Below are positions 556 through 35,788 of a stretch of DNA of 35,788 bases, in pieces. The DNA comes from a virus, in IMG/VR virus record IMGVR_UViG_3300021197_001978, positions 1-35,788 of that record. The stretch is one strand, 5' to 3'. The notes under the pieces are model-generated. The model was not told where the DNA came from and did no database searches. It saw only the letters and a list, made by a program, of their open reading frames with translations. Every line of letters starts with the position of its first letter. The stretch's first letter is position 1. A program made the position numbers and the translations under genes.

Positions 556-1689
556 ATGGTAGACATTCCTACACTAGATATTGAGGATTACGATCCCGAG
601 TTAAATGAAGAAGAAGAAACCGTTGAGGATAAGTCCGGTGGTGCTCTTACCTACGCTATTGTTGGCGCTGGACAAGGCGGCGGACGTATGGCTAAAGCAT
701 TTTATGATATGGGCTACACAAAGACTGTAGCCGTCAATACAGCACGCTCAGATCTTAATGGGCTAGACATCCCAGAGGAGCAGAAGTTTCTTGTTGATGA
801 GCATGGCGAGCAAGGCGCTGGAAAAGATCAGGCCAAAGCCCAGGCAGCTATTGAGCGTAAGGAGCAAGAGGTATTTAATAAATTCCGAGAAATTTTTGGG
901 ACTAATGTAGATCGTATCTTAATCTGTCTTGGAGTTTCAGGAGGATCAGGCGGCGGCACTGTTAATACTCTTATCAAGGTCGCTAAGAAATACTTCACAT
1001 ACATTGGTATTGAGGATGTCGATGAGCGTGTTGGTGTGGTCGCATCGCTTCCAACTGCTGGTGAGTCAGCATCCCCAACGGTAGCTAAGAACGCCCATGC
1101 TCGCATCACTCAACTTTGCGGGCTAGCAGAAAAGGGTAAGATCGCTCCACTTATCATGGTGGACAATGAAAAGATTAAAAAGCTTTACCCCAAGCTCACG
1201 GTCAAGAAGTTCTGGACAACTATCAACAATACAGTCGCTGGCTTGTTCCACGTATTTAACGTCCTGGCAAACAAGGACTCAGAATATACAACTTTTGACG
1301 CAACTGACTATGATAGTATTATGCGTCAGTCAGGCTGTATGATTATGGGTGTCACAAGCGTCAAAGACGTTGAGAGCGAAACAGCTATTTCTAATGCTCT
1401 TAAGAAAAATCTAGAGAAAACTCTTCTTGCTGAAGGCTTCGACCTTACAACTGCAACAGGTGCTGCTTGTATCGTTGTTGGCGGTGAGGTTATTTTTGAA
1501 GAAACTGCTGGGCTAATGGACAGTATCGAGTTTGGCTTTGATACGCTGGCTGCCATAACGGGCGGTGCTATAATTCATCGTGGTATCTATGAAGATGATA
1601 AGCGAGATAAGCTTGTAACCTATACTTTGGTAAGCGGACTTAAGAGACCCTCAAAACGAATTGAGGGACTTAAGAAGTTCTTGAAATAA
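556..1689 (+). CDS. Tubulin/FtsZ-superfamily GTPase (phage tubulin)
   Basis: The 377-residue protein carries the hallmarks of the tubulin/FtsZ superfamily. A glycine-rich nucleotide loop (GAGQGGGR) is at residues 37-44, the strand AVNTARSDL at 59-67 resembles the FtsZ AVNTD segment, and GGSGGGT at 129-135 corresponds to the tubulin signature GGGTGSG. The segment TTFDATDYDSIM at 245-256 lines up with the FtsZ synergy loop, so Asp248 and Asp251 match the catalytic acidic residues, while the usual Asn is a Thr. Such proteins bind GTP and polymerise into cytoplasmic filaments. Phage tubulins such as PhuZ position replicating phage DNA, but this role is not shown here. An acidic tail of about 25 residues precedes the domain and the C-terminus is basic. 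AAGGAG lies before the ATG. The location, between lysis-like genes and the terminase, is unusual. Confidence 0.88.
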   Translation: MVDIPTLDIEDYDPELNEEEETVEDKSGGALTYAIVGAGQGGGRMAKAFYDMGYTKTVAVNTARSDLNGLDIPEEQKFLVDEHGEQGAGKDQAKAQAAIERKEQEVFNKFREIFGTNVDRILICLGVSGGSGGGTVNTLIKVAKKYFTYIGIEDVDERVGVVASLPTAGESASPTVAKNAHARITQLCGLAEKGKIAPLIMVDNEKIKKLYPKLTVKKFWTTINNTVAGLFHVFNVLANKDSEYTTFDATDYDSIMRQSGCMIMGVTSVKDVESETAISNALKKNLEKTLLAEGFDLTTATGAACIVVGGEVIFEETAGLMDSIEFGFDTLAAITGGAIIHRGIYEDDKRDKLVTYTLVSGLKRPSKRIEGLKKFLK

Positions 1690-11055: not shown

Positions 11056-11490
11056 ATGGGCAACACATCACCAGATAGTTCATATTACTCAAGCTATGTA
11101 AGAGCTTCAGGAATAGGGAACGCATCAGCTTACCAGGTGGCGGGTAAGCCTTTTTTAACTGGTAATCTAGATATAGACAACGGTGTCGAAGATAAAATTG
11201 TATTTCCGACTGTCACAAAAAAAATCGTTGTAAAAAACATGGCAGATATTGATTTAAGGGTACACTTTGCTACTACGGCCTCTACTCAAGTCAACCAAAC
11301 CTCTGCTTATTGGACATTGCCGACAACGAAGGACGAAATTACTTTGAATGTGAAGTGTACAGAAATTTATATTTCTAATCCTACTGGCAATAATGGCAAG
11401 TATGAACTGTATGCAGAACTCACTGGGATTCCCGCTGAGAACATGTTTACACTGACGGGCGCTGGCATAACTGGTGCCACAAACGTATAG
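11056..11490 (+). CDS. Virion structural protein, tandem paralog B
   Basis: This 144-residue protein is the sister of the gene at 10555. Both begin MGNTSP, both carry VEDxIVFPTV followed by VKNMADID, and both end in ELTGIPAENMF. A 36-base block (10912-10947 versus 11413-11448) is identical at the DNA level, much closer than the rest of the two genes, which suggests recent duplication with local gene conversion or strong constraint. The variable middle parts may give the two proteins different binding surfaces. It is preceded by its own ACTATTTA motif and an AAAGGAG site. Likely a head or tail surface component; function unknown. Confidence 0.78.
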   Translation: MGNTSPDSSYYSSYVRASGIGNASAYQVAGKPFLTGNLDIDNGVEDKIVFPTVTKKIVVKNMADIDLRVHFATTASTQVNQTSAYWTLPTTKDEITLNVKCTEIYISNPTGNNGKYELYAELTGIPAENMFTLTGAGITGATNV

Positions 11491-11525
11491 TTCATAAATA
11501 ATCCCTTCCTTTAGTGCGCTAATAT

Positions 11526-11533
11526 ACTATTTA
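11526..11533 (+). promoter_or_regulatory. ACTATTTA motif, candidate late promoter
   Basis: ACTATTTA lies 41 bases before the scaffold ATG at 11567, in the gap after the second paralogous virion gene. Spacing matches the copies at 10511 and 11014. Confidence 0.6.
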
Positions 11534-11566
11534 CTTTGATTAATACCATCTTTAAGGGGTACACTT

Positions 11567-12562
11567 ATGTCTAACATGTTAGAGCAAGCCATCATAGATG
11601 CCCAATCTCTCAGAGAAGCAGCTATGAAAAATGCCGAATCAGAAATTGTTGAAAAATATTCTGATGAAGTAAGACAAGCAGTGTCAAAACTTCTGGAACA
11701 GGAAGAAGAGCTTGATTTAGGATTGGACTTAGAAGACGAAGTTGAGCAAGTAGATAGCACTGCCATGGAACAGGTTCCAATGGCACATGTTTCTGACGGC
11801 GCTGAAGAAATCGTCGAGGTTGATCTTGACGACATCATCGCCGCTGCGCAATCCGAGGATGACGAAGAAGAATTTGAGCTTGATCGAAGTGAGATTGCGG
11901 ATGAAGTCGGGATTGACCTGGGGCTTGAGACAGAAACCCCCGCTAATCGAAATGATGACGAACTCGCCCTCGACGAAAATGAACTTCTTGATCTTTTTAA
12001 AGAATTACTTGTGGTTGACGTGCCAGAACTGGCCGTCAAGCAATCTATGGAGGAAGCTTCCGAGGATGAGATCGAGGAAGATGAAGAAGCAATAGTGCAG
12101 GACGATGACGTTGCTTTAGCCCCTGTAGAGGGTATGGATAAAGAAGATGCTGACGACCTTCGCAATGAAAAAGAAAAGAACGAAAATCTTCAAAAAGAAA
12201 ATAAAGACTTAAAATCTCTCCTAGGAAGCCTTAAGGGAAAACTAGAAGAGTTACATGCGCAAAACGCAAGATTATTATTTACAAATCGTGTTCATGAAAA
12301 CACCTCTTTGAATGAGCGGCAAAAAAATAAAATTGTCGAGATGATTTCAAACGCACGATCAGTTGATGAAGCAAGAGTAATTTTTGAAACTCTTCAAAAG
12401 ACAATGGCGGGAATTTCTAATAGTAAGACCCCAGAATCGTTGTCTGAAGCCGTAACAAAAAGATCTTCGGTTATTCTCAGCAATCGCAGAGATGAACACG
12501 TTTCACAACAAAACCCGACCACGGATCGATGGGCGATCTTGGCGGGATTAAAAGACAATTAA
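11567..12562 (+). CDS. Prohead core scaffold protein (gp22-like)
   Basis: This 331-residue protein would form the internal core on which the capsid assembles and which is later degraded by the gp21-type protease. An N-terminal helix (residues 1-45) is followed by a very acidic region to about residue 200, a coiled-coil heptad stretch (ENLQKENKDLKSLLGSLKGKL), and a conserved helical block containing NRVHENTSLNERQKNKIVEM. This is the pattern of T4-like gp22 scaffolds. Its place between protease and major capsid protein matches T4 order (21-22-23). A motif at 11526 and an AAGGGG site precede it. The acidic linker is longer than usual, so the protein exceeds T4 gp22 (269). Confidence 0.9.
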   Translation: MSNMLEQAIIDAQSLREAAMKNAESEIVEKYSDEVRQAVSKLLEQEEELDLGLDLEDEVEQVDSTAMEQVPMAHVSDGAEEIVEVDLDDIIAAAQSEDDEEEFELDRSEIADEVGIDLGLETETPANRNDDELALDENELLDLFKELLVVDVPELAVKQSMEEASEDEIEEDEEAIVQDDDVALAPVEGMDKEDADDLRNEKEKNENLQKENKDLKSLLGSLKGKLEELHAQNARLLFTNRVHENTSLNERQKNKIVEMISNARSVDEARVIFETLQKTMAGISNSKTPESLSEAVTKRSSVILSNRRDEHVSQQNPTTDRWAILAGLKDN

Positions 12563-17183: not shown

Positions 17184-17259
17184 TTAAGAGCAATGAAGTC
17201 GGTATATTAACCATCTTGTTTGCTATTTTACTAGAAATTACATCAAGGAGACCTTTTTG

Positions 17260-20200
17260 ATGGCTGACGAAAGAAAGTTTAAGTTCATATCTCCAGGGGT
17301 TTTTATAAACGAAATAGATAACTCCCAATTACCAGAAGAGCCTGGTGACATTGGACCCTTGGTTATCGGCACTGCCCCTCAAGGACCCTCCATGGTCCCA
17401 GTTACAATCAACTCTTTCTCTGAATTAGTTGAAACTTTTGGTGAACCGAATGCCGGTAAACCATCGGCAGATGCTTGGAGATTTGGACAACAGAGTGCTC
17501 CTTCTTATGGGCTGTATGCTGCTCAGGCATGGTTGAGAAACAATGCGCCACTGACTTATGTTCGTCTTGCTGGCGAACAAGATCCGGAAGCCACTGCTGC
17601 TGGCTTGGCTGGCTGGAAAGCTGGAACGCTCAGTAGCACACCAACTGAAGGCGGTTCTTTTGCTCTTGTGGTTTGGCCAAGTTCATCCATTAGTGTTGCC
17701 GACGCTGACGCTAACGTTCGTGTTTCGGGCGCTGTTGCTGCCACCTTCTATCTTAACGAAGGTAGAATGACAATTAGCGGCACGCTCGCTACTCCGCACA
17801 CTCTTCCGCTTCCGACAACAGCAAGTACTTGCACCCTGTTCGACACGGACGCTAATGGTCACTTTAATTTGGTTTTCGACCCTAACGGTGTTGGTGATAT
17901 TACTTCTCATGTAGCAAATGTGTCACTCAATCCAGATGACAGAAACTTTATTCGTAAAGTTCTTAATACTAACCCGACAGTGGTTAACTCAACAGTCACC
18001 ACCCAGCAGACCAGAAATGCAAGCCAGGGCGGCGGTTTTTGGATTGGTGAAACCTTCGAGAGGCAGCTTGCCAAAGTTGGCTCTGGCTCCATGGGAATCT
18101 TGGGTGACAGTATTTTAGGATCGAAGTTCCATATTGCACTTTTCCCAATGAGAAACCAAGTTGCAATAACGCAAGATCAGAATGATCACCAGTATGGCTC
18201 ACAAAAAGCTTCGACTGGTTGGTACATTGCTCAAGACCTAAACGTTGGTACAAACAACGCCTTCCAGGCACATGAACAACAAAAATTGTTTAGAGTTGAG
18301 GCTCGCACTGGTGGACAAAGCATCCAACGACAAATTAAAGTATCAATTGAGAACATAAAAGCCCCTGAGGGTGACTTTGATTTGTATGGTAGCTTCTCTT
18401 TGGTGATTAGAAATATTCGAGATACTGATTTGAATCAGATTATTTTAGAAAGATACGATTCTTTGAATTTGAATCCTGCTTCGCCAAATTATATTGCTAG
18501 AGTCATAGGTGATAAGTTTATGACCTATGATACAACTACGCAAACAAATCGTGAATACGGCACTTATACAAACCGTTCTAAATTCATTCGAATCGCAATG
18601 AATGAAGATATTGACAGAGGCACCACTAACGCTGAGTTCTTACCATTCGGTGTCATTGGTCCTTTGACCTATCGTGCCGCTCAAATTAACAGTGGTTCGG
18701 GCGGACTGACTTCTTATGGATCAACTGGACAGCTTAGTGCCAGTCGTGGCGCTTTGGCCAGTATGATTGACGGTGGTGATCAAACCTTGTTCGGCGCACT
18801 TGGCGGATATGACTCTGCTAGTTATGGAACAGTCACTGCCGAGAAGAACTTACTTGTTATCTCGGGAGCGGTCGCTAACGGAACAGCCGGAAATATTACA
18901 GCCTCGTTTGTGTTCCCGACAACGCCGCTACGTCGTCACAGCAACTGGGGTCGCCCCGGTGTGCCGATGAAGAACGTTTACTTTGGTGCTTGGACAGGAA
19001 TCACAAAGGATGATCAGACGTTTAATCCTTCGGTTCTTGATACTTTGACCTCAAGGTGCAAGGGCTTGCAGGGCACCCCTGCCCCAACAGGACCTAAAGA
19101 TGTTGCCCCGAATTTCCAGGCTAACATTAGTACTTCGCCAAGTCTTAATACCCCGACCATGGGACTCGGACAAGCCGTTTCGGCATCGTCTGATCCCTTG
19201 CAACTTGGTTGGGTCTTTACGCTTGATGATATAATGCTCTCGCTCGCAGCCGATGGTTTGGGCGGAGGTTATGTTCACATGTCGGGCTCAAGACAAAAAA
19301 CTGTCAGTATTAGTGCAATATCTGGCGGATATACTGGCTCGCTGAACAAGGGCTTGGACAGATTTACCACGCTTCTTGCCGGCGGATTCGATGGTGTTGA
19401 TATCACCGAGCGTGACCCCTTCAGAAACAGTGCTGTTGCTGCTGGTGTTGCAGAGGTGAATAGCTCTAAGCTTCACAGCCTCAAGAGAGCGATTAATATC
19501 GTGTCTGACCCTGACCAAAATCAATATAATGTGGTCACAATTCCTGGTGTTACAATACCTGCCGCAACTAACTATCTTCTGGAGAAAACAGAGGAACGTG
19601 GCGACGCTCTGGCCATTATTGATCTAGAGAAAATCTATACTGCGGATACAGAAAATACTTCTAGTAGCGCAGATAGAAACTCTTTCACAATTAAGCAGGC
19701 AACAGACGCCCTTAAAGCTAGAAACATTAACAACAGCTACGGCGCAGCATATGCCCCTTGGGTTCAGATCCAAGATACTATCTCTAACAGGCTTATCTGG
19801 GCTCCGCCTTCGATTGCCGCACTAGGAGCTTTGTCGTCCAACGATAGAGTTGCCGCTCCATGGTTTGCCCCAGCCGGGTTTACTAGAGGCGGATTGTCAG
19901 AGGGTGCTGCTGGATTGCCTGTCCTGGATGTCTCTAAGAGGCTTAGTTCGGAAGATAGAGACGATCTGTATGAAGCAGGTATTAACCCAATCGCTAAATT
20001 CCCTGCTGAAGGGATTGTGATCTTCGGGCAGAAGACCCTGCAACAGACAGCTTCTGCGCTTGACAGAATCAACGTGAGAAGACTGCTTGTCTTCTTGAAG
20101 AGAGAGATCTCGTTCATCGCATCGAGACTCTTGTTTGCTCAGAACAACCAAGACACTTGGAATAGGTTCTTGCAGCAAGCAACGCCTGTTCTGGAAAGCG

Positions 20201-20379
20201 TCAAGGCTCAGTTCGGCATTGATGACTTCCGCTTAATTCTGGACGAAACAACGACGACCCCAGACTTGGTGGATAGAAACATTATTTACTCTAAGTTAAT
20301 CGTGAAGCCAACCCGCTCTGCCGAGTTCTTCGCTATTGATTTTGTTATCACTAACAGCGGCGCTGCTTTTGAGGACTAA
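17260..20379 (+). CDS. Tail sheath protein (gp18-like), oversized
   Basis: This is the contractile sheath subunit. The N-terminus (FISPGVFINEIDNSQLP) and the C-terminus (LVDRNIIYSKLIVKPTRSAEFFAIDFVIT) are the conserved ends of gp18-type sheaths, and TPVLESVKAQFGIDDFRLIL near the end also fits. At 1039 residues it is much longer than T4 gp18 (659); the extra length lies in the middle, in Gly/Ser/Thr-rich segments likely to be outward-facing insertion domains. I chose the ATG at 17260, nine bases after AGGAG (17246-17250); the TTG at 17257 is also possible and would add one residue. The codon profile suggests very high expression. Confidence 0.96.
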   Translation: MADERKFKFISPGVFINEIDNSQLPEEPGDIGPLVIGTAPQGPSMVPVTINSFSELVETFGEPNAGKPSADAWRFGQQSAPSYGLYAAQAWLRNNAPLTYVRLAGEQDPEATAAGLAGWKAGTLSSTPTEGGSFALVVWPSSSISVADADANVRVSGAVAATFYLNEGRMTISGTLATPHTLPLPTTASTCTLFDTDANGHFNLVFDPNGVGDITSHVANVSLNPDDRNFIRKVLNTNPTVVNSTVTTQQTRNASQGGGFWIGETFERQLAKVGSGSMGILGDSILGSKFHIALFPMRNQVAITQDQNDHQYGSQKASTGWYIAQDLNVGTNNAFQAHEQQKLFRVEARTGGQSIQRQIKVSIENIKAPEGDFDLYGSFSLVIRNIRDTDLNQIILERYDSLNLNPASPNYIARVIGDKFMTYDTTTQTNREYGTYTNRSKFIRIAMNEDIDRGTTNAEFLPFGVIGPLTYRAAQINSGSGGLTSYGSTGQLSASRGALASMIDGGDQTLFGALGGYDSASYGTVTAEKNLLVISGAVANGTAGNITASFVFPTTPLRRHSNWGRPGVPMKNVYFGAWTGITKDDQTFNPSVLDTLTSRCKGLQGTPAPTGPKDVAPNFQANISTSPSLNTPTMGLGQAVSASSDPLQLGWVFTLDDIMLSLAADGLGGGYVHMSGSRQKTVSISAISGGYTGSLNKGLDRFTTLLAGGFDGVDITERDPFRNSAVAAGVAEVNSSKLHSLKRAINIVSDPDQNQYNVVTIPGVTIPAATNYLLEKTEERGDALAIIDLEKIYTADTENTSSSADRNSFTIKQATDALKARNINNSYGAAYAPWVQIQDTISNRLIWAPPSIAALGALSSNDRVAAPWFAPAGFTRGGLSEGAAGLPVLDVSKRLSSEDRDDLYEAGINPIAKFPAEGIVIFGQKTLQQTASALDRINVRRLLVFLKREISFIASRLLFAQNNQDTWNRFLQQATPVLESVKAQFGIDDFRLILDETTTTPDLVDRNIIYSKLIVKPTRSAEFFAIDFVITNSGAAFED

Positions 20380-30522: not shown

Positions 30523-31947
30523 ATGGTACAACCAAATAAAGTCGATCCAAACCAAAGACCTTTTAAGTTCACAAACGTGGATAACACCTCGGACGCCAGA
30601 CAGGCCTTTGAAGAACGCAAAAAATATGCAGAGTTTATCTTTCCTATTTCATCTGATGTAGGACGTTCTTTTAATTTTTGGGGTTCTGATAAGTTTTTTG
30701 GCAGAGTCAACCAAGCTGGTGATTCTATACTCGTCTCCGAGCGCCGACTCAAACAGTTAGGTGCTTCGGAAAGTGGCAAAACATGTTATGCACTTGACTT
30801 CGTTGCTGATGCGTGGCGTGACTTTTCAGATAAGATAAAATCAGAGGTAGCATCGGGAAGACTTTACGATTCAGGACCATATTCAAAGCTAGAGGTCCAA
30901 AGAGGGTGGAGTGATATTTATACAGATTACCATTCATATATGACAGGAGACTTGTATCCAGCTTTCCAAAACGTTTTTATGAATCTTCCTATGAGGAAAA
31001 GAAAAATAGCAAACTTTGATGGGTTCCTGGAGATATTCGACGAGTTCTCTGATTTGATTATTAAAGATGCTGGTCCTATTACCTTATCTGGTTTTGTTGA
31101 AAGTATATATTCCTCCCCCCTTAATACCGGACTTGTAATAGAAACAAGCAGGGCGGAGCATGACGAGGACCTAAACAAAGAAGTTAATTTTTTATACGAT
31201 GAAAATTATGGCTTAGTTGTATCCTTGGCCTCTCAGTATGGATTCTATGTTGATAAGAATGCTCCATGGAGATTTGTGTGCGACCCAGCTTCAAGAGCAG
31301 CACAAGAGTACATGATTGGGATACCCATGACAAACCCAGACCCAGTAGATAACCCAGAGGGTGATTGCGAAGATTCTGCCTTTGTACCAAAAGGATCACG
31401 ACTCTCAGAACCCTTTGGATACTCAAGAATACCTGGGTTTGAGAATGTGCTGAGACATGCACCCGGCTACGAACCCTATAGGGATGAGGTCAGCGCCGCT
31501 TTTGGTGCTCAGGCTATTTATTCTGGCTTATTCAGGGCTTCTTATTTGGAAACCTGGAATTCAGACATAGATATTTTAAAGGTCTATTTGTTAGATTTTT
31601 ACAATCGATATGTGGCGGCTAACAGTAGCCTCTTGATACCGGCTGAAACATTAAAAAAATGTGACAAGCCCATCACAATTTTTAGAGAGATTTTGACACC
31701 GAATGTCTTGTCTTTGTATGGTGATAAGTGGTCCCTGAGGGCTTTCTATTCTCTCCGAAGAAGAGAGCGAAGTATCAAAGAGACTCCGAAGAATGAACTA
31801 AGGGATATTAGAGAAATCTTTACTTTCTATGATTTTTCGCCTCAGGGCAGAGACAATTCTAGATATGTTAAAGCCTTAAAATATACTTTTGATAAGTTTG
31901 TTGGCGGCTTAACAACAAACATGATCTCGGCTAAACTTATCTCGTAA
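30523..31947 (+). CDS. Tail/baseplate structural protein, unknown
   Basis: The 474-residue soluble protein has aromatic-rich segments (WGSDKFFGRVNQ, DENYGLVVSLASQYGFYVDKN and APWRFVCDPASRAAQEY). It shows no enzyme motifs that I can recognise. It starts three bases after the large hub gene, with AAGGA upstream, and is the last gene of the structural block before the polymerase-like gene. This suggests a baseplate or spike component expressed with the hub protein. Six cysteines are scattered without zinc-ribbon spacing. Its ATG occurs in a CCATGG context. Confidence 0.7.
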   Translation: MVQPNKVDPNQRPFKFTNVDNTSDARQAFEERKKYAEFIFPISSDVGRSFNFWGSDKFFGRVNQAGDSILVSERRLKQLGASESGKTCYALDFVADAWRDFSDKIKSEVASGRLYDSGPYSKLEVQRGWSDIYTDYHSYMTGDLYPAFQNVFMNLPMRKRKIANFDGFLEIFDEFSDLIIKDAGPITLSGFVESIYSSPLNTGLVIETSRAEHDEDLNKEVNFLYDENYGLVVSLASQYGFYVDKNAPWRFVCDPASRAAQEYMIGIPMTNPDPVDNPEGDCEDSAFVPKGSRLSEPFGYSRIPGFENVLRHAPGYEPYRDEVSAAFGAQAIYSGLFRASYLETWNSDIDILKVYLLDFYNRYVAANSSLLIPAETLKKCDKPITIFREILTPNVLSLYGDKWSLRAFYSLRRRERSIKETPKNELRDIREIFTFYDFSPQGRDNSRYVKALKYTFDKFVGGLTTNMISAKLIS

Positions 31948-31957
31948 GGTTGTAATA

Positions 31958-33178
31958 TTGCTGTTTCAAACATTAGATGATAAAGCTGAGTGTGTAGGTA
32001 TCTACACTGACAAAGAGATGATCTTTGACCCAGAAAGTTTTCCCGAAAATATATCGCAAACTTGGAGCTATTCTCCGTATTTGCGGGGTAGGGACATTGA
32101 TTACGCATCTTTATTTCTGGAAGGAGAACCTCTTTCTGGCTGTCTTCCCGAGTACTTACGAGATGACTGGGATGATGTTTCGGAAAGAATATTAGCTTTT
32201 AAGAGATCTCTGGATATATCAAAAGTAAATCAAGACGAAAACTGTTTTTTTGATCTAGTCCCAGAGAGATTTTTGATTGATCTCTGCGAGGTTAAAAATC
32301 GTATAACAGAACATGTTTTTCAAACGATAGACAAACCAAAAAGGTACAACTTTCATAGACATGTTTCGATGCTTCTGGGAGATATAGCCTCACAGCCAAT
32401 AAGTATTGACAAAAAGAAATTATTATCATATACAAAAAATCCAAAGATAAGTGGGCAGGCTAAATCGGTTTTAGATTCCCCTTCATATGTTAGGTATAAT
32501 CAATTTGGTACTAAGACTGGTCGCCTGACAACTAATAAAAACTCATTTCCAATATTAACATTGAATAAGAGTCTTCGCTCTGTCATTAAGCCACAAAATG
32601 ATATGTATGTTGAGCTTGATTTCAACGGTGCTGAAATTCGCACGTTGCTCGGAATGTTAAATGAACCACAGCCGAAAGAGGACGTCCACCAATTCCACCT
32701 CCAGAGAATTTTCAACCCTTCAGTTACTAGAGAGCAGGCCAAGGTTTACTTTTTTTCATGGCTTTATGGATCTAGGGAGATGTCGATAAAACAAGAGGGA
32801 AAAGAACTAGAAAAGTTCTATGACAGAGAAAAGTTGCTTAAAGATTTTTATGACGGTAATCAAGTAACGACGCCTTACGGAAAAGTAATGACAGATGTCA
32901 GTAGACATCATGCCTTGAACTATCTGGTTCAATCGACGACAGCAGAACTGACCTTGAAGCAAGCCCTTAAGATTGACTATCTATTGAGGACGCAAGGATC
33001 TGGTTCAAGAATAGCTTTTCTAATACATGATGCCATTGTTCTAGACCTAAAGAAAGAGGACAAACATTTACTACCTCTGGCTCTTCTTTTGATGAAGTCT
33101 ACCAATTTTGGAGAGTTCGGTGTAAATACTAAGTCGGGTAAATGTTTAGGCACACTCAAGGAGTTTAAAATTGGATAA
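31958..33178 (+). CDS. Compact family A DNA polymerase, no exonuclease domain
   Basis: The 406-residue protein has all core polymerase motifs of family A. QFGTKTGRLTTNKNSFPIL at 182-200 matches the TGRLSS segment; motif A is ELDFNGAEIR (Asp221, Glu226); motif B fits R-x3-K-x3-F-x3-YG exactly (Arg258, Lys262, Phe266, Tyr270, Gly271); NYLVQST (Asn321, Gln325) fits the N-x3-Q element; motif C is LIHDAIV, with Asp358 kept and the usual Glu after it replaced by Ala359. The N-terminal 180 residues are too short for a 3'-5' exonuclease domain and show no DxE motif. T4 itself uses a family B polymerase, so this is unusual. It starts with TTG, eight bases after AAGGT, and ends inside the next gene (8-base overlap). 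Confidence 0.9.
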   Translation: MLFQTLDDKAECVGIYTDKEMIFDPESFPENISQTWSYSPYLRGRDIDYASLFLEGEPLSGCLPEYLRDDWDDVSERILAFKRSLDISKVNQDENCFFDLVPERFLIDLCEVKNRITEHVFQTIDKPKRYNFHRHVSMLLGDIASQPISIDKKKLLSYTKNPKISGQAKSVLDSPSYVRYNQFGTKTGRLTTNKNSFPILTLNKSLRSVIKPQNDMYVELDFNGAEIRTLLGMLNEPQPKEDVHQFHLQRIFNPSVTREQAKVYFFSWLYGSREMSIKQEGKELEKFYDREKLLKDFYDGNQVTTPYGKVMTDVSRHHALNYLVQSTTAELTLKQALKIDYLLRTQGSGSRIAFLIHDAIVLDLKKEDKHLLPLALLLMKSTNFGEFGVNTKSGKCLGTLKEFKIG

Positions 33179-34028
33179 AGTAATTGGTGTTGGAGACTTT
33201 GGGTGCGCCCTTGCAGAACAATTGACAGCGTACCCAGAATATCGTGTCTATAAAATAAATTCTAAAATATCTGAAAGAGGTTCGCTCGCTATCGGCAGCT
33301 ATTCAAACATGCAAGAATACGAAAGCAGTGTTGACGACGACGAGGTAGCAGTTTACCTTAGGTCTGTTAAAAGTGGAGATGAAGTTCTTGTGGTGGCTGA
33401 GGGCGGTGACCCAATAACTGGGTCTTTGCTGCGCATTCTAAACACGATAAGTGATGCAAAAGTTTCTGTCTTATATGTTTGCCCAGATAGAAACATATGT
33501 TCGGAGACCCAAAAAAGAGACGACAAAATCTGTTTCAACGTGATTCAAGAGTATGCTCGCAGCGGTATGCTTGATAGAGCTTATTTGATAAACAAATCAT
33601 CGGTAGAGGCTTTGGTTGGTGATGTTTCTATACAGGATTATGAAAAAAGTATTTCATATTTTATATCTTATGTGGTAGCTATGGTCAATTATTTTAACCA
33701 CAGCGAGGCTATAGTGTTAAATAAGCTGAGCATTAAGAATTCCTGTAGGGTTGCTACATTTGGTGTTTGCTCATTAGATAATAAGGCACCTGTTAACTTA
33801 TTGTTCCCACTGAACAAAATATCAGATGTTCACTTTTATTATGGCCTTCCCGGCGAGGTCATTGAAGGTGACGGCACTATAATGAAAAAGATAAAACAAC
33901 AAGTAAAAGACTATAAAACTGATGAATCTATGAGCGTTGGGTTTTCTGTATACCCAGTCACGTTACCTGACCCTTTTGTTGTTTGTGCAGCATACTCAAA
34001 TGAAATACAAAATTTTGCCTTCGCTTAG
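33171..34028 (+). CDS. Divergent tubulin/FtsZ-like protein, probably non-catalytic
   Basis: The 285-residue protein resembles the FtsZ/tubulin GTPase fold in order of elements: an N-terminal nucleotide-loop-like VIGVGDFGCALAEQL at 4-18, a strand RVYKIN like FtsZ's AVN segment, VKSGDEVLVVAEGGDPITGS at 66-85 where the tubulin signature GGGTGSG should be, then a VSVLYVCPDRN strand and an AYLINKSS strand-helix. The signature loop is degenerate and no Asp pair is seen in the region matching the T7 synergy loop, so catalysis is doubtful. It is shorter than the copy at 556 (377). The TTG start follows AAGGAG by seven bases. It overlaps the polymerase stop. The fold call needs structure prediction. 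Confidence 0.6.
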   Translation: MDKVIGVGDFGCALAEQLTAYPEYRVYKINSKISERGSLAIGSYSNMQEYESSVDDDEVAVYLRSVKSGDEVLVVAEGGDPITGSLLRILNTISDAKVSVLYVCPDRNICSETQKRDDKICFNVIQEYARSGMLDRAYLINKSSVEALVGDVSIQDYEKSISYFISYVVAMVNYFNHSEAIVLNKLSIKNSCRVATFGVCSLDNKAPVNLLFPLNKISDVHFYYGLPGEVIEGDGTIMKKIKQQVKDYKTDESMSVGFSVYPVTLPDPFVVCAAYSNEIQNFAFA

Positions 34029-34063: not shown

Positions 34064-34507
34064 TTGTCAAACAGAAATACCAAAAGGGGCGTGTTGCTCG
34101 CCTCATTCATAACAACCGATAGCGAGAATGAAATCGATGCCGAAGTTCATTTCATAGTAAATGAGCTTGAACTAACTAATAACTATATTTTCTTGCTGCA
34201 AAACAAAAACACACCAGAGAAGAAAATATTAACTTACAATGCGGTAACAGAGACTGGTAAGAAGTTTAACCCACGGTTGCATACGATGAGAATCCACAGA
34301 AAAAAACAAACCAATACTCTTTATTCCATCAATGCTTTGAACGCTGCCATATCCGAACAGCACGATGGCGAAGTTGGAAAGCATCTAAAGTTAGACTGGA
34401 CAGAGTACTCTAATTCTCTTCTGTTAACGGTCGGAAAAAAACTTCAAGTCCATCCTATTGAAGTCCTTAAGATTTTTAAAATAGAAGAACCTCCCGAAGA
34501 AAATTAG
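34064..34507 (+). CDS. Unknown protein between tubulin-like and SSB genes
   Basis: The 147-residue product is probably soluble. It has a mixed strand and helix pattern with the motif TMRIHRKKQTNTLYSINALN at about 91-110, followed by an acidic C-terminus (EEPPEEN). AAGGA lies eight bases before the TTG start at 34064; no in-frame ATG occurs near it. The gene lies among replication genes, just before a sigma70-like promoter for the ssDNA-binding protein. A regulatory or replication accessory role is possible but unsupported; no family recognised. Confidence 0.72.
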   Translation: MSNRNTKRGVLLASFITTDSENEIDAEVHFIVNELELTNNYIFLLQNKNTPEKKILTYNAVTETGKKFNPRLHTMRIHRKKQTNTLYSINALNAAISEQHDGEVGKHLKLDWTEYSNSLLLTVGKKLQVHPIEVLKIFKIEEPPEEN

Positions 34508-34571: not shown

Positions 34572-35354
34572 ATGGGTATTGATCTTGCAAAGATGCGGCA
34601 AAAACACGCTGCTCTTACGACCAGAGGAGGCGACTCTTCAGAAAACTTTTGGAAGCCAGAGGAAGGCACACACCAGTTGCGACTAGTGTGTCCACCGAGC
34701 GGCGATCCATTCTTTGAGGCATATTACCACTACGGCATGGGTGCCGAAGGTAAGACTACTGTCCTCAGCCCACGAACTAATGGCGATCCCGATCCCATTG
34801 CAGAGTGGGGAACCAGTCTTTGGAACGAAGGCACTGACGGCTCTAAGGAAGCAGCAAAACGCTTCTGGCCTAAGATGCGAGTGTTTGCTCCCATCGTCGT
34901 CCGTGGCGAAGAGGACAAAGGCGTTCGCTGGTGGGGCTTTTCCCGCACCACCTACCAGGCACTACTTGATGTAGTTCTTGACCCCGAGTACGGGGACATT
35001 ACCGATACCGAAAAGGGTACGGACATTCGCATTGACTACGGCAAGAAGTCGGGTCAATCATTCCCAACGACTGATGTGCGCCCTATGCGCCGCACCTCAC
35101 CCTTGGCGAAGACCGAAGAAGAAGTCAACACTCTTCTTGAAACCATCAAAGTCGCTGCGGATGTTTTTGATGTCGCTACTTACGACGCTTGCCAAAAGGT
35201 TCTTAATGATACCTTAGGCGAGGCGGATAATGCAACTACCTCGGAGTCTACTCGTTACAGTAACACTGAGACTGCTACCACTACGGCTAACAAGAGCAAG
35301 GGTATGGAAGGTGTTGCAGATATTGAGACAGCGTTTGATGATTTGCTGTCATAG
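34572..35354 (+). CDS. Single-stranded DNA-binding protein (gp32-like)
   Basis: The 260-residue protein would coat ssDNA during replication and recombination. A basic N-terminal helix (LAKMRQKHAAL) resembles the gp32 oligomerisation arm, followed by an OB-fold-like core: FWKPEEGTHQLRLVCPPSGDP at 27-47, an HYG strand, a KRFWPKMRVFAPIVVRGEE strand-loop and VRWWGFSRTTYQALL. The tail is Ser/Thr-rich and acidic (VADIETAFDDLLS), typical of protein-docking ends. The zinc-binding cysteine cluster of T4 gp32 is absent. Length is a little below T4 gp32 (301). AAAGGAG precedes the ATG, and codon use favours C-ending codons, consistent with high expression. Confidence 0.88.
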   Translation: MGIDLAKMRQKHAALTTRGGDSSENFWKPEEGTHQLRLVCPPSGDPFFEAYYHYGMGAEGKTTVLSPRTNGDPDPIAEWGTSLWNEGTDGSKEAAKRFWPKMRVFAPIVVRGEEDKGVRWWGFSRTTYQALLDVVLDPEYGDITDTEKGTDIRIDYGKKSGQSFPTTDVRPMRRTSPLAKTEEEVNTLLETIKVAADVFDVATYDACQKVLNDTLGEADNATTSESTRYSNTETATTTANKSKGMEGVADIETAFDDLLS

Positions 35355-35418: not shown

Positions 35419-35788
35419 ATGGGAAACAGAGCCGGAAACAGCCTTGTAAGTGATTTGCGCAGCGAATTAAACAAGGCAGCTAAAGAAAATATTGCATATG
35501 ATTTGAATGGGGACAACCCCACCGACGTAAAGACTTGGATCCCAACTGGTTCAACGCTTTTGGATTATATTATTTCCAATCGCCGAGACGGTGGCATCCC
35601 TGTCGGCAAGCTCACCACGATTGCTGGCGAGTCTGCCAGCGGCAAGAGTCTTATCGTCACCCAGATCCTAGCGAACACACAAAAGATGGGAGGCGTTGCT
35701 GTTTATATTGATACAGAGAACGCAGCCTCCCCAGATTTTATGGAACAACTAGGGCTTGACACAAAGAACAACTTTATGTATGTTCAGC
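35419..35788 (+). CDS. uvsX: RecA/UvsX-like recombinase, 5' part
   Basis: The first 123 codons of this gene are present; it runs off the window end. The N-terminal helix (SLVSDLRSELNKAAKENI) is followed by WIPTGSTLLDYIIS, then PVGKLTTIAGESASGKSLI, where GESASGKS at 70-77 is the Walker A motif of RecA-type ATPases. IDTENAAS near 98-105 precedes the strand reaching the catalytic Glu region. In T4, UvsX performs strand exchange with gp32, and the gene here follows the gp32-like gene directly. A hairpin separates the two. A gp32-to-UvsX order supports UvsX over a host RecA copy. Confidence 0.92.
   Translation, partial: MGNRAGNSLVSDLRSELNKAAKENIAYDLNGDNPTDVKTWIPTGSTLLDYIISNRRDGGIPVGKLTTIAGESASGKSLIVTQILANTQKMGGVAVYIDTENAASPDFMEQLGLDTKNNFMYVQ

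Follow-up and report, generated by a model that had tools for sequence, protein, structure and literature searches.

The window analysed here, a 35,788 nt stretch of the uncultured virus record IMGVR_UViG_3300021197_001978, raises the question of what a protein with the order of elements of FtsZ is doing directly behind a DNA polymerase gene in a phage that also encodes a more conventional-looking tubulin. The preliminary description had proposed that this protein (pseudo-tubulin, hereafter ptub) is a degenerate FtsZ-like protein which, with the tubulin encoded from position 556, could make up a two-component tubulin system in which the degenerate member caps, nucleates or copolymerises. Elsewhere the window carries the terminase, portal, protease, capsid, sheath, tube and baseplate genes of a T4-type myovirus, and the nearest sequenced phages, judged by the terminase, are Immutovirus (Flavobacterium; 47 % identity) and Microcystis phage Mel-JY01 (43 %). 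The features relevant to the argument are listed in the table.

Table. Positions in the window of the two tubulin-related genes, their motifs and the replication module
Feature	Position	Strand	Basis
Intact-looking phage tubulin, 377 aa	556..1689	+	PF00091 36.8 bits, PF22453 (TubZ-like_C) 34.4 bits
T4 signature of the tubulin, GGSGGGT, residues 129–135	940..960	+	sequence
T7 catalytic loop of the tubulin, TFDATD, residues 246–251	1291..1308	+	sequence
Conserved 474-aa protein upstream of the polymerase	30523..31947	+	synteny
Family A DNA polymerase (polA), 406 aa	31958..33178	+	PF00476 E 1.5e-14, phrog_17 E 3e-18
Probable ribosome-binding site of ptub (AAGGAG), within the polymerase ORF	33158..33163	+	sequence (predicted)
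ptub, predicted degenerate tubulin-fold protein, 285 aa	33171..34028	+	ORF, TTG start, 285 codons
Overlap of ptub start and polymerase stop, 8 nt, TTGGATAA	33171..33178	+	sequence
ptub T1 glycine loop, GVGDFGC, residues 6–12	33186..33206	+	column counts
ptub T4-equivalent, EGGDPITGS, residues 77–85	33399..33425	+	alignment, column counts
ptub QEYARSG, residues 126–132	33546..33566	+	column counts
ptub T6 position, Lys142	33594..33596	+	column counts
ptub T7/H8 region, no conserved acidic pair, no helix H8	33702..33752	+	column counts, both models
Conserved 147-aa protein between ptub and SSB (clade I)	34064..34507	+	synteny
Single-stranded DNA-binding protein (SSB)	34572..35354	+	phrog_1192 E 1.6e-17
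UvsX/RecA-like recombinase, truncated at the window end	35419..35787	+	phrog_97 E 7.2e-31

Judged from its sequence, ptub is a real and constrained gene. Its TTG codon lies 7 nt downstream of AAGGAG, the first two homologue searches returned 47 relatives (26–89 % identity), and a query from the distant clade found at least 588 ptub loci. In pairs with unsaturated dS, dN was 0.02–0.11 against a dS of 0.6–2.3, giving dN/dS of approximately 0.03–0.07 and indicating strong purifying selection; homologues and purifying selection together rule out a chance ORF. Two ptub frames contain an in-frame stop codon (TAA in G052, 11227–12060; TGA in G133, 62823–63686) and are pseudogenes or assembly errors.

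The window ptub gave no match to any Pfam or PHROG family up to an E of 1, including the PhuZ profile phrog_4733 and the TubZ-like profile, and a single-sequence search of the PDB returned nothing relevant, so a sequence search alone would label it an orphan. An AlphaFold2 model based on a thin alignment of 7 sequences, for which the five models ranged in pLDDT from 43.7 to 83.6, reached a pLDDT of 83.6 and a pTM of 0.85, and its best 50 Foldseek matches in the PDB were all FtsZ (E approximately 3e-11 to 5e-10, the top match at 2.7e-11). When compared using VIA-align, the closest structures were CetZ (3zid; Z 24.7, rmsd 3.3 over 267 residues) and CetZ2 (4b45; Z 23.9, rmsd 3.0 over 268 residues), followed by TubZ (Z 22.9), FtsZ (22–23) and tubulin (about 22). 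A distant relative (L244) sharing 30 % identity with the window ptub was modelled from 40 aligned sequences with all five models at a pLDDT of at least 94, the best having a pLDDT of 94.9 and a pTM of 0.92, and it matched FtsZ in Foldseek at an E of 1.4e-13, CetZ at a Z of 24.7 and TubZ at 23.5. The listed fold matches of both models belong to the tubulin superfamily without exception. The two models therefore confirm, at the level of prediction, the FtsZ-type fold that had been proposed for this gene: the tubulin nucleotide domain is not missing, and a complete tubulin/FtsZ fold consisting of a Rossmann-like N-terminal domain, the central helix H7 and a C-terminal domain is predicted.

The family is also linked to bona fide tubulins by sequence, and this link is modest but repeatable. 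Comparison of the distant ptubs with the tubulin type found at 556 using hhalign gave an E of 2.1e-5 and a probability of 77 over residues 4–184, the ptub profile matched clade I tubulins at E values of 2e-6 and 4e-6 in a search of 8,052 ORFs from nine contigs, and in six-frame searches each of ptub and tubulin weakly and reciprocally matched the H6–H7 region of the other. At this level ptub is homologous to tubulins, and it probably descends from one like that carried by these phages.

Outside the uncultured viruses, ptub was not found. Against 50,697 phage records there was no significant match; the only hit of the window ptub in tblastn was insignificant (E 0.4, a Helicobacter prophage record), and three distant ptubs had none. 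Cellular homologues were sought in 84,980 species genomes, where there was no matching stretch with A2 and no relative with A3. The family as a whole matched nothing at a convincing level in Pfam or PHROGs, and neither the family profiles searched against the PDB nor the window ptub searched against Pfam found a tubulin-family sequence. It is nonetheless present in well over 500 uncultured viral contigs, many of them from ocean viruses of microbes. The phage tubulins described in the literature are PhuZ and TubZ (PMC10299810, PMC7824862, PMC9123017). The statement that no described phage is known with a pair of this kind agrees with the open-access literature searched, in which no active and degenerate tubulin were found in one phage. 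On the sequence and model evidence, ptub is a new and divergent tubulin-fold family.

How far ptub has departed from a working tubulin was assessed by counting motif columns in 78 distinct ptub sequences. The T1 loop is retained and its GxGxxG pattern is near-invariant (G6 and G8 in 78/78, G11 in 77/78). The T3 glycine loop is unrecognisable across the same sequences. The altered signature noted earlier is indeed present, EGGDPITGS standing at the position of the canonical T4 signature GGGTG[ST]G; clade I, to which the window belongs, mostly has GG[DE]P[IV][ST]G and clade II mostly G-x-G-x-[IV]-S-[GA]. The most conserved stretch outside T1 is QEYARSG, which is specific to the family (R130 and S131 in 78/78). 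At the T6 position, where an Asn contacts guanine in FtsZ, 43 of the 45 clade II ptubs have Asn and most of clade I have Lys or Arg. An Asp (Asp30) ends strand 2 in the same proportion of clade II sequences (43/45). The absence of an acidic pair from the synergy-loop region of the window protein was likewise borne out, as none follows H7, no conserved motif occurs there in the family, and a spaced acidic pair is found in only 16 of the 78 T7 segments. Helix H8 is absent from both models. The active site of an FtsZ or tubulin subunit is completed by T7 and H8 of its neighbour in the filament, and ptub is thus predicted to have lost catalysis and one longitudinal stacking face, though nucleotide binding may remain.

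The tubulin at 556, in contrast, has intact T4 and T7 motifs and scores above the cut-offs of both Pfam families, and it was correctly described as active-looking. It has relatives in at least 80 contigs (L009–L088; 84–100 % identity), and 40 of 43 tubulins belonging to this type or a related one have [TS]FDxxD. Among sequenced phages, only marginal matches to Bacillus phage G were found and there was no clear relative. The related type is exemplified by the 364-aa tubulin of G085, which is 30 % identical to the 556 tubulin and contains GGGGGTGS and TFDSKD. This second type (L257:1027–2121, minus strand, and L264–L343) was seen at no fewer than 107 IMG/VR loci on contigs of up to 280,913 bp, mostly with no detectable ptub in the same contig.

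The two genes co-occur to differing extents in the two clades. In clade I, ptub lies approximately 32 kb from the tubulin gene and is present in all 13 of the tubulin records searched for it that extend at least 31 kb downstream of tubulin (14/14 with the window), though two of the 13 carry an identical ptub and are perhaps the same virus, and one (G052) is the record with the in-frame TAA; none of the shorter records in this search carries ptub. When 50 clade II ptub records were searched with PF00091, a tubulin was found in G085 only, below the family cut-off, the other sub-threshold matches looking like the ptubs themselves, and a tubulin of the G085 type was not found in the remaining records. 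Conversely, ptub is present in 7 of 34 long records with a G085-type tubulin. HMM searches of nine long contigs found both genes in three (G002, G031 and G085), ptub only in three (G037, G106 and G120) and tubulin only in three (G134, G138 and G142), and the tubulin-only phages have other ORFs between polA and SSB. The long contigs that carry ptub but in which no tubulin was detected measure 203,859, 189,713 and 186,398 bp, and those with tubulin and no ptub 184,866, 201,585 and 280,913 bp; since the contigs are not certified complete, these absences are strong rather than absolute. A six-frame query with PF22453 missed a record known to carry tubulin, and its negatives were left out. Hence, the proposed two-component system is partly supported: an intact-looking and a degenerate tubulin do occur in one phage and do so consistently in clade I, but each gene also occurs alone on long contigs, so that an obligate pair is rejected as a general rule, and ptub is distributed far more widely than the combination of both genes.

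The constant companion of ptub is the polymerase. The overlap of the two reading frames pointed out in the preliminary description measures 8 nt in the window, polA is upstream of ptub in 86 of 86 sampled loci, and in 64 of these the ptub start overlaps the polA stop or lies no more than 20 nt from it. The order polA–ptub–SSB–UvsX is common to both clades. In the remaining 22 loci the genes are separated by 36–1,950 nt, and each of the five gaps that were read contains what appears to be a short MazG-like ORF. This ORF, of approximately 100 aa, is a feature of part of clade II (L216, L229, L195, L215 and L227). The 474-aa protein encoded upstream of the polymerase is conserved in both clades, evolves fast and has no convincing family match. 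The space between polA and SSB in Immutovirus is taken up by ORFs of 151 and 171 aa, both too short to be ptub.

Because it is the polymerase and not tubulin that always accompanies ptub, we favour a role in replication, and consider this a more probable basic function of ptub than copolymerisation with the active tubulin. We suggest, with a probability of about 0.5, that ptub belongs to the replication module and acts together with the family A polymerase. Having kept T1 and being without a recognisable T3, T7 acidic pair or H8, the parts that reach into the nucleotide of the next subunit, ptub would probably still bind nucleotide but would be unable to stack and hydrolyse in the manner of FtsZ and tubulin. 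It might then act with the polymerase, for example as an accessory protein or as a nucleotide-responsive tether of the replisome, and this function would not need a phage tubulin. The partnership is read from gene order. Against it, a position in the same operon suggests shared timing of expression rather than contact, the genes are separated in 22 of the 86 loci, and clade I phages invariably carry the tubulin. Co-variation does not discriminate either: though the distance matrices of ptub and polA are correlated (r 0.87, partial 0.71), in a control using nine genomes the ptub distances followed those of the terminase gene, some 30 kb away, at r 0.96 and those of polA at 0.92, and the partial correlation may reflect ordinary shared ancestry. 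The narrower proposal that ptub is a dedicated accessory subunit, i.e. a processivity, fidelity or tethering factor, of the replicative family A polymerase in hundreds of marine phages is doubtful. We know of no description of a tubulin fold as an accessory subunit of a DNA polymerase. There are precedents for replicative family A polymerases recruiting unrelated folds as accessory subunits: thioredoxin serves T7 DNA polymerase, and mitochondrial polymerase gamma has an accessory subunit of its own. Neither of these is tubulin-like, and the link between ptub and polA is known here from gene order.

The alternative closest to the original proposal is that ptub regulates the 556 tubulin, its nucleotide-side face binding a filament end so as to cap or nucleate and to tie the filament to replicating DNA. 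Lacking T7 and H8, ptub could only cap or nucleate, much as gamma-tubulin seeds microtubules. A comparable protein is ARC3 of chloroplasts, whose FtsZ-like domain is regarded as non-catalytic and regulates active FtsZ, though ARC3 is eukaryotic and has several domains. The presence of both genes in every sufficiently long clade I record and in seven clade II records fits this reading, as does the one-sided nature of the loss, T1 and a modified T4 being kept and T7–H8 lost. However, many viruses with ptub have no detectable tubulin, and the unrecognisable T3 and the replacement of the T6 Asn by Lys or Arg in clade I mean that the nucleotide-side face is altered as well. The degree of conservation also differs, clade I tubulins sharing at least 84 % and mostly 92–97 % identity and the corresponding ptubs 45–89 %, about 50 %. 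(This extraordinary conservation of the tubulin is seen between phages that have diverged by 40–50 % in ptub and polymerase.) Capping or nucleation through the remaining face is conceivable, if unlikely.

Two further readings appear improbable. Hydrolysis-dead tubulins can still polymerise, and the complete fold and conserved T1 would be in keeping with ptub forming a non-dynamic polymer of its own, with nucleotide bound and unhydrolysed, that organises the site of replication, but without T7 and H8 one of the standard longitudinal faces is missing. It is slightly less probable again that ptub now works as a sensor of nucleotides or metabolites, or as an enzyme supplying nucleotides, and has nothing to do with filaments or with the polymerase itself. 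Rossmann proteins that bind dinucleotides likewise combine GxGxxG with an acidic residue at the end of strand 2, and the Asp30 of clade II, weak matches to PF02254 (TrkA_N) in 5 of 40 ptub members (best E 4e-4) and the MazG-like ORF that several loci have between the two genes polA and ptub would fit this reading, but the match to tubulins extends over the whole chain, C-terminal domain included. The notion of an ordinary Rossmann protein of the TrkA/KtrA type, which came from the best PDB sequence match of the A2 profile, is disfavoured since the whole-chain fold matches are tubulins.

Relative to known members of the superfamily, ptub shares with CetZ, FtsZ and TubZ the whole fold (Z 21–25 over 260–280 aligned residues, also against tubulin) and the T1 glycine loop but only 11–18 % identity, and differs in the parts listed above, GGGTGTG being replaced at T4. 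Like ptub, PhuZ is a tubulin-fold protein of large phages, in its case the nucleus-forming jumbo phages (PMC10299810), but PhuZ assembles into filaments and has kept the T4 signature, whereas ptub has lost T7–H8, sits in a replication module and is not matched by the PhuZ profile. The 556 and L257 types are found in the same phages as ptub and are related to it at the level detectable with profiles, and differ in having T4 and T7 intact.

If the preferred role in replication is correct, a large group of uncultured phages would have converted the tubulin fold of a filament-forming GTPase to use in replication, providing a natural experiment on which parts of a tubulin are dispensable and possibly a further accessory fold for family A replicases. 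A tubulin in a phage need then not mean a spindle. Clade I, in which one virus has an active-looking and a degenerate tubulin, offers a testable case. Elsewhere in the window, the tail sheath protein (17257–20379) is very long at 1040 aa, and the relatives G134, G138 and G142 each have two tandem sheath-like ORFs of approximately 940–1200 aa.
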